A stretch of 32,536 nucleotides of DNA. It comes from Sneathiellales bacterium (GTDB lineage: Bacteria > Pseudomonadota > Alphaproteobacteria > Minwuiales > Minwuiaceae). The notes under the pieces are model-generated. The model worked only from the letters and a program-made list of their open reading frames with translations. It did no database searches and was not told the origin of the DNA. The first letter of the stretch is position 1, and the number at the start of each line of letters is the position of its first letter. The DNA lies in assembly GCA_026992315.1 (NCBI GenBank), contig JALXAG010000277.1:1-32536 (forward strand). Reading direction: 5' to 3'. The position numbers and the translations under genes were made by a program. Of this stretch, positions 3,545 through 8,331 are shown one piece after another.

Positions 3545-3901
3545 CTATTCCGGCTGCCAGGCCTCATAATCGCCCGTGGCATGGGGGCGCCTGCCGCCCT
3601 TATCCAGATGCCCCGCCGGCTTGTAGGCATGCACCGTGCCGGTCAGGTTGGGATGAAAGGGGCGTTCCCAGGCGTAATGATCGGTATCGTTACCAGGCAG
3701 TTCGTCGGTGGTCTTGTGCAGCCAGCGGTTCCAGCCCGGCGGCACTTTCGAGGCTTCCTCGACACCGTTGTATATGACCCAGCGGCGGCCGCCGGGACGG
3801 GTTTCCTGATAATAGCGATTGCCGAACTGATCGGTTCCGACCTGCCGTGCCCGGCCTGTCCTTTCCTTGAACCACGTAACCACGCGCGTGCGTATGCTCA
3901 T
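3545..3901 (-). CDS. NADH:ubiquinone oxidoreductase accessory subunit, NDUFA12 family
   Basis: A 118-residue protein with the NDUFA12/B17.2 signature: GTDQFGNRYYQE, RRWVIYNG, and the PPGWNRWLH segment followed by a His/Pro/Tyr-rich tail. It is a supernumerary subunit of respiratory complex I found in alphaproteobacteria and mitochondria. The other complex I genes are absent from this window, which agrees with its usual separation from the nuo operon. An AGGAC Shine-Dalgarno-like site precedes the ATG. It is the first gene of the minus-strand block leading to mlaD, the methyltransferase and DUF2155. Confidence 0.93.
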   Translation of the reverse strand: MSIRTRVVTWFKERTGRARQVGTDQFGNRYYQETRPGGRRWVIYNGVEEASKVPPGWNRWLHKTTDELPGNDTDHYAWERPFHPNLTGTVHAYKPAGHLDKGGRRPHATGDYEAWQPE

Positions 3902-4377
3902 GTCCTGAAACCCTGCTTGTTGCGCTTAATCCAACATCGCGCCCCGGCAAAGGCGCCATCCTTCAAAGCCGTACGATCAAAACACCCTGCGATCCGAAAT
4001 CATTTTCACCGATATATCGCAACCGGCCGGCGAGGCGCGTCAGCCCACCGCCCCGCCAGGACGGATATGCCGGAAACGCTGGCAATATCGCATTCTCTCC
4101 CCGCCGCGTCCAGTCTCGAAATCGTATCGGCCACGGGTAATACGATTCGCAATCGGACGAGAGGCCGGCAGAGCCATGTCCGGTTGCAGAATCGGAACGG
4201 CAATCGCTGCGGCTGCGCGAAATAGATCGAAAAGAATACTTGACAGAAAATCGCCGTTGCCCGCCCCCCTCACGCCCGCTGAAAACGGGATGGCGACGAG
4301 GCGCGCAAACTGCATGGAATTCCCGTCGCGAATCATAAATGCAGCAGACTGCCAACCATGGAAGATGCAGCTTAGAA

Positions 4378-4393
4378 ACACTATATACTGTGG
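4378..4393. promoter_or_regulatory. NrdR box 1 (strong match)
   Basis: The 16-mer ACACTATATACTGTGG matches 14 of 16 positions of the published NrdR box consensus acaCwAtATaTwGtgt as I recall it. NrdR is the ATP/dATP-sensing repressor of ribonucleotide reductase genes. The site lies upstream of nrdJ, exactly where such a box is expected, and contains a possible -10 hexamer (TATACT, 4384-4389). Confidence 0.75.
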
Positions 4394-4401
4394 TATGGGC
4401 A

Positions 4402-4431
4402 TTGACCTGACATAAATATCGGGTTCATACT
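4402..4431 (+). promoter_or_regulatory. Candidate nrdJ promoter
   Basis: A -35 element TTGACC (4402-4407), an 18-bp spacer and a -10 element CATACT (4426-4431). The degenerate NrdR box lies wholly in the spacer and the strong box just upstream, so NrdR binding would block RNA polymerase. An alternative is a promoter using TATACT inside box 1, but its -35 is poor. Confidence 0.45.
4409..4424. promoter_or_regulatory. NrdR box 2 (degenerate)
   Basis: Starts 31 bp after box 1, leaving a 15-bp gap, which is the helical spacing typical of paired NrdR boxes. Only 9 of 16 positions fit the consensus, but 9 of the 12 right-hand positions do (TAAATATCGGGT). It is called mainly on spacing next to the strong first box. 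Confidence 0.5.
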
Positions 4432-4671
4432 GACATAGTCACAGCGGGGGAGGCACCCGGCGGTGATGTAAGAAAACCCATCCGGACATGGTTACCCGGA
4501 AGCCCCGGGCGGCAGTCGATGCCGGCACAGCTGCGGGCGAAGATACGGCGTGAAAATCGGCTCCGGTGGGTATGGAACGGTATCATTCCGCATTTGCGGC
4601 CAACATCAATCATCCTCCGGCGGAACGCATGTCCGGCCGGCGGGATCTGGCAGAACGGGGACAGCAAGGCG

Positions 4672-7600
4672 ATGCGTGTTGAACGACGCTTCAGCGATAA
4701 CGGCACTTCGGCATATGACGGGCTGGAATTCAGGTTTACCAGCAGCGAGATCCGCAATCCGGACGGATCGGTCGTCTTCAGGCAGGAGAACATCGAGGTT
4801 CCCGCCGACTGGTCGCAGGTCGCCTGCGATATTCTGGCCCAGAAATATCTGCGCAAGGCCGGTATTCCCGCCTGCCTGAAACCGGTGGAGGAAAACGACG
4901 TCCCCTCCTGGCTGTGGCGCCATGAAGCCGACGAGGAAGCCCTTGCCGCCCTGCCCGAAGATGCCCGCTGGATCGGCGAAAGCAGCGCCAAGCAGGTTTT
5001 CGACCGTCTGGCCGGCACCTGGACCTATTGGGGCTGGAAGGGCGGATATTTCGACAGCGAAGAGGATGCGCGCGCCTATTTCGACGAGATGCGCCTGATG
5101 CTGGCCCGCCAGATGGCCGCCCCCAATTCCCCGCAATGGTTCAATACCGGGCTGCACTGGGCCTATGGCATCGAAGGCCCGGCACAGGGCCATCATTACG
5201 TGGATTTCAGAACCGGCGAACTCAAGCGTTCGGTCAACGCCTACGAGCATCCCCAGCCTCATGCCTGTTTCATCCAGTCGATCAAGGACGATCTGGTCAA
5301 TGAAGGCGGGATCATGGATCTGTGGGTGCGCGAGGCGCGGCTGTTCAAATACGGTTCCGGCACCGGCACCAATTTCTCCAACCTCCGCGGCGAAGGGGAG
5401 CCGCTTGCCGGCGGGGGCAAATCCTCGGGCCTGATGAGCTTCCTCAAGATCGGCGACCGCGCCGCCGGGGCCATCAAGTCCGGCGGCACCACCCGGCGCG
5501 CCGCCAAGATGGTCACGGTCGATATCGACCATCCGGATATCGAGAAATACGTGAAATGGAAGGCCGACGAGGAAAAGAAGGTCGCGGCACTGGTCGCCGG
5601 TTCGCAGCTTTGCGCCGAAAACCTGAACAACATCCTTGCCGCCTGCCATAACGACAGCTTCGCCCCGGATGACGAGGCCCGCTTCGATCCCAAACGCAAC
5701 AAGGGCCTGCGCAAGGCCATTCTGGGTGCCCGCAAGGCGCGGGTGCCGGAAAATTACATCCAGCGCATGATCGAATTCGCCCGGCAGGGCTATACGGAGG
5801 TCGAATTCCCCATCTTCAACACCGATTGGGATTCGGAAGCCTATCTGACCGTCTCGGGGCAGAATTCGAACAATTCCGTGCGGGTCAGCGACGATTTCCT
5901 GCGCGCCGTTCTCGATGACGGCGACTGGAACCTGATCCGCCGCACCGACGGCCAGGTGGCCAAAACCGTCAAGGCGAAGGAGCTGTGGAACGATATCTGC
6001 GAGGCCGCCTGGTCCAGCGCCGATCCGGGGCTGCAATACGACACCACCATCAACGACTGGCATACCTGCCCGAACGACGGCCGCATCAATGCCTCCAACC
6101 CCTGTTCGGAATATATGTTCCTGGACGATACGGCCTGCAATCTCGCCTCGCTCAATCTGATCGTCTTCCTGAAGGAGGACGGCAGTTTCGATCACGAAGC
6201 CTTCTCCCATGCCGTGCGGCTGTGGACCATCGCGCTGGAAATTTCGGTGCTGATGGCGCAGTTCCCCTCTGCCGAGATTGCCGAACGCTCCTACCGCTAT
6301 CGCACGCTGGGGCTGGGATATGCCAATATCGGCGGCCTGCTGATGGCCATGGGCCTGCCCTATGATTCGAAGGAAGGGCGTGCCATGTGCGCGGCCATCA
6401 CCGCGCTGATGGCCGGGCGCGCCTATGCCACCTCGGCCGAAATGGCCGGGGAGCTCGGCCCCTTCCCGGGCTATGAGAACAACAAGGAGGCCATGCTGCG
6501 CGTCATCCGCAATCATACCCGCGCCGCCGAAGGCAAGGCGGAGGGCTATGAAGGGCTGCATATCGCCCCGGTGCCGCTGAAGGCCGCGGACTGCCCCGAT
6601 GCGGCCGTTGCCGATGCGGCCCTGGCGAGCTGGCATCAGGCGCTGGCGCTGGGCGAACGCAACGGTTTCCGCAATGCCCAGACCACGGTCATCGCCCCCA
6701 CCGGCACCATCGGTCTGGTCATGGATTGCGACACCACGGGAATAGAACCCGATTTTGCGCTGGTGAAATTCAAGAAACTGGCCGGCGGCGGTTATTTCAA
6801 GATCATCAACCGCATGGTGCCCCGGGCACTGCGCAAGCTGGGTTATAGCGAAGCCCAGATCGAGGACATCATCGCCTATGCCGTCGGCCACGGCACATTG
6901 GAGGGGGCGCCGGCGATCAACCATGACAGCCTGCGCGCCAAGGGCTTCACCCAGGCGGCAATCGATGCGGTCGAGAATGCACTCGAAGGCGCCTTCGATA
7001 TCAAATTCGTCTTCAACAAGTTCATTCTGGGCTCGGAATTCTGCGAACATGTTCTGGGCTTCAGCCCCGAACAGCTCGATGACTTCACCTTCAACATGCT
7101 GGAGGCGCTGGGCTTCAGCGAAGAGGATGTCGAACGGACCAATATCCATGTCTGCGGCGCCATGACCCTTGAAGGTGCGCCGCATCTCAAGCCCGAACAT
7201 CTGCCGGTCTTCGATTGTGCCACCCCCTGCGGGCGCATCGGCACCCGCTATCTTTCGGCGGAGGCGCATATCCGCATGATGGCGGCGGCGCAGCCGTTCA
7301 TTTCCGGCGCCATTTCCAAGACCATCAACATGCCGAACAAGGCGACGATCGCCGATTGCGAGCGCGCCTATATGCTGTCCTGGAAGCTGGGGCTGAAGGC
7401 CAATGCCCTGTATCGGGACGGTTCGAAACTGTCGCAGCCGCTGAATGCCATCGCCCTTGGCGACGATGACGGCAGCCTGGCCGAGGAAATTCCCGAAAAG
7501 CCGGCCGCCCAGCAACCGACCCTGGTGGCGGAGCGCATCGTCGAGCGCATCGTCGCCGCCGAGCGGCGCAAGCTGCCGCAACGGCGCAAGGGCTACACGC

Positions 7601-8331
7601 AGAAGGCCTCGGTCGGCGGGCACAAGGTCTATCTGCGCACCGGCGAATACGATGACGGCACCCTTGGCGAAATCTTTATCGACATGCACAAGGAAGGCGC
7701 TGCCTTCCGCAGCCTGATGAACAATTTCGCCATCGCCATTTCCATCGGCCTGCAATATGGCGTGCCGCTGGAAGAATATGTCGAAGCCTTCACCTTCACC
7801 CGTTTCGAACCCTCCGGCATGGTCGAAGGCAATGACGCGATCAAAATGGCCACGTCGATCATCGATTACGTCTTCCGCGAACTGGCGGTCAGCTATCTCG
7901 GCCGCACCGATCTGTCCCATGCCGAACCGGCCGATCTGCGCTTCGATGCCATGGGCCAGGGGCAGAACCAGGGCGACCTTCCCGCCAAGGACAAAGAGGA
8001 TCGCCAGCAGACGATTCAGTCGGTGATCGGCCTGGCCTCGACCGGTTATATGCGCTCCAATCTCTATGTACTCGGCTCGGCCGGCAGCGGCACGGCCACG
8101 GCGATCGAAACCGTTCAGGCCGCACGGCAGGCCGGTGGTGTCGCAGCCGCATCTACCGGCAGCGGCGGCACGGGAAGCGGCCCGGCCTCGGAGCGGATGA
8201 GCCGCATTACCGAAGCGCGCATGAAAGGTTATGAAGGCGATCCCTGCGCGGAATGCGGCAATTTCACCATGGTGCGTAACGGCACCTGCCTGAAATGCGA
8301 TACCTGTGGCGGGACCAGCGGCTGTTCCTGA
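4672..8331 (+). CDS. nrdJ: Vitamin B12-dependent (class II) ribonucleoside-diphosphate reductase
   Basis: Reduces ribonucleotides to deoxyribonucleotides using an adenosylcobalamin-generated thiyl radical; works with or without oxygen. The product is 1219 residues, normal for the long proteobacterial NrdJ. I chose the ATG at 4672 ([11 protein letters not shown]), which matches the usual family start; an in-frame upstream ATG at 4519 would add 51 unconserved residues. Active-site positions are visible: Cys199 in PHACFIQ, the finger-loop NPCSE with the likely radical Cys478 and Glu480, Cys489 in [11 protein letters not shown], and the phosphate-binding PTGTIG at 676-681. A TSCPD domain follows (about 900-1060), and the C-terminus has six Cys (1192, 1195, 1206, 1209, 1212, 1218) in a zinc/redox tail. 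Probably controlled by NrdR through the boxes upstream. A terminator follows. Confidence 0.97.

Follow-up and report, generated by a model that had tools for sequence, protein, structure and literature searches.

A probable NrdR operator upstream of the class II ribonucleotide reductase gene nrdJ in a Sneathiellales bacterium

The window, i.e. the whole stretch of 32,536 bp analysed here, carries a gene for a class II ribonucleotide reductase, a divergent neighbour and between them an intergenic region with two candidate binding sites for the repressor NrdR. It belongs to a 3.15-Mb draft genome made up of 284 contigs. The features of the locus are as follows.

3545 to 3901, minus strand: NDUFA12-like gene, divergent; bounds the intergenic region at 3901 and is given for context only.
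4378 to 4393, plus strand: NrdR box 1, ACACTATATACTGTGG, matching 14 of 16 consensus positions; a conserved class of site 5' of nrdJ.
4402 to 4407, plus strand: predicted -35 element TTGACC, a consensus match only, 8 bp past box 1 and between the boxes.
4409 to 4424, plus strand: degenerate NrdR box 2, GACATAAATATCGGGT, matching 9 of 16 positions, inside the spacer of the predicted promoter.
4426 to 4431, plus strand: predicted -10 element CATACT, a consensus match only, with an 18-bp spacer.
4438 to 4671, plus strand: putative untranslated leader of ~234 nt, with no recognisable element.
4672 to 8331, plus strand: nrdJ, adenosylcobalamin-dependent class II ribonucleotide reductase, about 1219 aa.

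Loci carrying nrdJ were collected from 41 genomes and from a public genome collection (the best 80 of 592 loci). Three of the resulting 111 (L001, L030, L031) were not nrdJ and were dropped, leaving 108. For upstream comparisons the locus of this genome (L002), a duplicate (L037, of L013) and two loci with short upstream DNA (L011, L064) were taken out, and 90 of the 104 usable loci were non-redundant. The best boxes of 77 of these loci, the present locus left out, served to train an NrdR matrix; scores of best boxes in the training set are favourable by construction. Counts at 11/16, 12/16 and at least 13/16 refer instead to a consensus that we take to be the literature NrdR consensus.

Pfam assigned to NrdJ a class II N-terminal domain, a barrel and a TSCPD domain, and detected no ATP-cone in it. 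The named records among its relatives were mostly Alphaproteobacteria, or genera or orders of that class, and the genome was assigned to the class by this similarity. The most likely start of nrdJ is the ATG at 4672 (MRVERRF): the open reading frame listing alone carries the frame up to 4519, and the matches of most relatives begin at or within a few residues of residue 52 of this longer frame, which is MRVERRF. An in-frame N-terminal extension from the ATG at 4519, although the frame stays open, was rejected for want of peptide conservation: across the nine relatives compared, no more than 7 of the 51 residues were identical in position. By a rough count that includes the present locus, the duplicates L013 and L037 and the too-short L011, the upstream frame is open in 15 of 108 loci.

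Box 1 differs from the NrdR consensus, ACACWATATNTWGTGT, at two positions, in agreement with the original prediction of a 14/16 match. It was the sole independent site at three mismatches or fewer in the window (shuffle mean 0.27), a match at 4376 being the same box in a shifted register and counted with it as one site. A genome-wide scan for NrdR boxes, proposed with the original prediction, was carried out as pattern searches rather than as a matrix scan, and box 1 was the sole site at two mismatches or fewer in the 3.15 Mb. The motif by itself is not rare at this scale, since the reversed-pattern control gave 2+1 matches in the same genome; the weight of box 1 as evidence is its location 5' of nrdJ, not the rarity of the motif genome-wide. 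A core pattern at one mismatch or fewer occurred at two places in the genome, and the reversed control gave 13 per strand. The second of these places (L127, near 1501-1514, one mismatch) is close to the start of a small open reading frame, which we take to be YggT-like from its look, and is likely a chance match.

Box 2 starts 31 bp after the start of box 1, leaving a gap of 15 bp and about three helical turns between the box centres. Its weakness, its offset and its gap had all been described correctly; relatives share neither the exact pair nor its position. By the matrix, box 1 scored 19.1 bits. Box 2 scored -3.2 bits and ranked fourth among 585 positions, with two of the three better-ranked positions being box 1 in two registers. 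At the conserved positions 4 and 13, box 1 keeps C and G, while box 2 keeps G13 and has A at position 4, where the matrix frequency of C is 0.98.

In Streptomyces coelicolor, inversion of conserved pairs of the C:G type cut NrdR binding about 50- to 60-fold (PMC9110341), and a single putative NrdR box has been described at topA of Pseudomonas aeruginosa (PMC4409342). In line with the latter, box 1 might function alone, with NrdR binding as weakly as at single-box targets and with box 2, which matches at 9/16 with only one of the two conserved C:G pairs intact, being a chance resemblance. We regard this as unlikely, while giving it some weight, since a phased partner as good as box 2 arose in only 27 of 2000 flank shuffles and 47 of 2000 local shuffles (1.4-2.4%), and the spacing from box 1 to box 2 is exactly the class-wide mode. 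Because of the shuffle counts, box 2 is judged probably real but weak. Phased partners that equal or surpass box 2 are present at 64 of 104 loci, so that either the pair may be bound weakly at the present locus or box 1 may act almost by itself.

Upstream of alphaproteobacterial nrdJ genes, conservation of NrdR boxes is strong. Boxes matching at least 13/16 were present within 300 bp of nrdJ at 72 of 104 loci (100 shuffles: mean 1.26, maximum 4) and boxes of at least 14/16 at 38 of 104 (shuffle mean 0.07); at the remaining 32 of 104 no box within that distance reached 13/16. Among same-family genomes (L005-L010, L015, L016) the best box matched at least 13/16 in 8 of 8. Conservation of the boxes 5' of orthologous nrdJ genes, on which the original prediction had been made to depend, was thus found both across the sample and within the family. 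Spacings of 30-33 bp were dominant (82 of 286 box pairs, with the peak at 31-32 bp), and with the consensus at 11/16 there were 55 such pairs vs 3 in reversed sequence. Longer box distances (36-260 bp) showed no significant 10.5-bp helical phase (P 0.086). The exact two-box layout fared less well than the boxes themselves in the comparison of related genomes: box positions in this genome and its family do not align, and their distances to nrdJ differ. What is conserved, to judge from these upstream regions, is a class of operator and not the present pair base by base.

The intergenic region is common to nrdJ and the NDUFA12-like gene, which lies 5' of nrdJ on the opposite strand at 64 of 108 loci, at some of them with more than 1 kb of other DNA between; the divergent pair (3545-3901 and 4672) is itself a conserved pairing. 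That the boxes serve the NDUFA12-like gene and not nrdJ is nevertheless very improbable: the start of that gene is ~476 bp away from box 1, vs 294 bp for nrdJ, boxes stand 5' of nrdJ even where the NDUFA12-like gene was not found or is more than 1 kb away, and the predicted promoter points toward nrdJ.

That promoter, and with it the transcription start, is predicted from a consensus match only. The elements TTGACC and CATACT, said to hold box 2 in their spacer, are present with a spacer of 18 bp, but the match is at chance level: because 0.7 matches of this quality are expected by chance in the 1.1-kb region scanned, the predicted nrdJ promoter is plausible and not significant alone. Across alphaproteobacterial nrdJ upstream regions no dominant offset from TTGAC to the box was found.

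With nrdJ starting at the ATG at 4672, the putative leader is ~234 nt long. A leader of ~240 nt had been noted as unexplained; it is indeed long, and nothing beyond chance was seen in it by Rfam, folding or reading frame. A leader of this length upstream of an enzyme that needs adenosylcobalamin could in principle hold an RNA switch, such as a cobalamin riboswitch, that is the main control of nrdJ and leaves the boxes a secondary role. Scanning the window with Rfam at gathering level yielded no match, and relaxing the search of 3800-4900 to E 5 yielded none either; 20 nrdJ loci, related or own, were likewise free of Rfam matches, and no Rfam riboswitch model matched in the leader. The predicted fold (-93.9 vs a shuffle mean of -99.1 kcal/mol; z +1.06) was slightly worse than those of shuffles. 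A structured leader was rejected on the Rfam and folding results, and we hold an RNA switch as the main control to be highly improbable. The simplest reading of the sequence is a long untranslated leader, in which nothing needing explanation was seen.

Absence of nrdR would have told against NrdR control. One canonical nrdR gene was found in the genome, scoring above the TIGR00244 cut-off and encoding a product with Zn_ribbon_NrdR and ATP-cone domains; it is flanked by genes that we take, from their own sequences, to be glyA-like and ribD-like. No NrdR box of at least 2 bits was seen by the matrix at the nrdR locus itself. The reductase encoded by nrdJ is not the only one in the genome: class I nrdB and a 3' fragment of nrdA lie at one end of a contig of 4,731 bp (G000:C170, L126). 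NrdR may act on nrdAB too; nrdA runs off the contig end, and its promoter is missing from the contig. Same-family relatives (L118-L125) hold a second reductase-like open frame of ~770-910 aa, and the stretches 5' of its provisional start contained no more than a single site, scoring 4 bits or less.

We propose, with a probability of about 0.87, that the region 4378-4431 is the NrdR operator of nrdJ and mediates dATP-dependent repression. To the boxes, their phasing, their conservation and the nrdR gene, all found directly in the genomes, this proposal adds tetramer binding, ATP/dATP dependence and repression from published NrdR work, in which NrdR, as a tetramer with ATP and dATP bound, occupies two boxes separated by 15-17 bp and bends the DNA (PMC9110341, PMC12176259, PMC12051234). 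When dATP is plentiful, an NrdR tetramer carrying ATP and dATP would sit firmly on box 1 and weakly on box 2, bending the DNA between them, where the predicted -35 element lies. Box 2 would fill most of the promoter spacer. Because the predicted -35 element is between the boxes and box 2 is in the spacer, bound NrdR would block RNA polymerase from the nrdJ promoter. On a drop in dATP, NrdR would shift to oligomers that do not bind, and nrdJ would be transcribed. The weakness of the second box suggests that the operator is leaky or easily relieved. Since no ATP-cone was found in NrdJ, that of NrdR would be the only one acting on this reductase; a B12-dependent enzyme without a detected ATP-cone would thus be placed under a repressor that has one, and NrdR is likely the dATP sensor for NrdJ supply. 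We consider the locus a well-supported, ordinary example of how the making of DNA precursors is matched to their supply.

Many relatives have more than a pair. At least three boxes (at least 3 bits, within 450 bp) were found in 51 of 90 non-redundant nrdJ upstream regions (shuffles: mean 0.97, maximum 3), and at least four in 26 of 90. By the consensus at 12/16, at least two boxes were present in 47/90 regions vs 1/90 in reversed sequence, and at least three in 13/90 vs 0/90. Ladders of three or four boxes in steps of 30-34 bp occurred at 11 of 104 loci (shuffles 0.07). The genus designated g3 has its two best boxes at a distance of 44 bp. Three of its loci have spacings of 31, 44 and 42 bp, which can be taken as one valid pair of 31 bp and another of 42 bp linked across 44 bp. 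Tentatively, and with the odds somewhat against it, the usual nrdJ operator of Alphaproteobacteria could be an array of three to five boxes, spaced as a ladder with ~31-bp steps or grouped into two linked pairs, in which higher NrdR assemblies or alternative tetramer registers would make the response to dATP a graded one; on this view the window would hold a reduced two-box version. For the arrays themselves the sequence evidence is strong. The natural series of box spacings at alphaproteobacterial nrdJ is material for testing NrdR oligomers on DNA.

Individual layouts vary. Four-box ladders with 30-33 bp steps stand 5' of nrdJ at L008, L012, L014, L017 and L052. In Roseibium/Labrenzia (L082, L083, L088, L095, L104, L106) two strong boxes, or box pairs, lie near -170 and -415 from nrdJ. 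Their separation of ~245 bp within a single upstream region might reflect two promoters or a looped operator.

The comparative genomics of NrdR was reportedly treated by Rodionov and Gelfand in 2005. That paper may cover NrdR boxes at alphaproteobacterial nrdJ; a literature search that included PMC3019208 found no paper on them. NrdR control of class II reductases, put forward in the original prediction as known in some bacteria, is indeed already described for S. coelicolor (PMC9110341) and P. aeruginosa (PMC4409342). The present locus resembles S. coelicolor nrdRJ in having a class II reductase, two 16-bp palindromic boxes about three turns apart and an NrdR with Zn-ribbon and ATP-cone (PMC9110341); it differs in having its nrdR outside the nrdJ operon, a degenerate box 2 and a long putative leader. 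The nrdJab promoter of P. aeruginosa, a member of a different bacterial class, likewise serves a class II reductase and has two NrdR boxes, and mutation of its box 2 gave expression like that of an nrdR mutant (PMC4409342); its box 1 overlaps the -10 element, whereas here the predicted -35 element lies between the boxes. Operators of three and four NrdR boxes are described for Streptococcus nrdHEF and Listeria nrdAB (PMC12051234), and many alphaproteobacterial nrdJ relatives share with them the presence of more than two boxes. Those cases are class I reductases of Bacillota, and the window has only two boxes. The multi-box state of nrdJ extends these known operators, though its being the norm throughout a class may be new.
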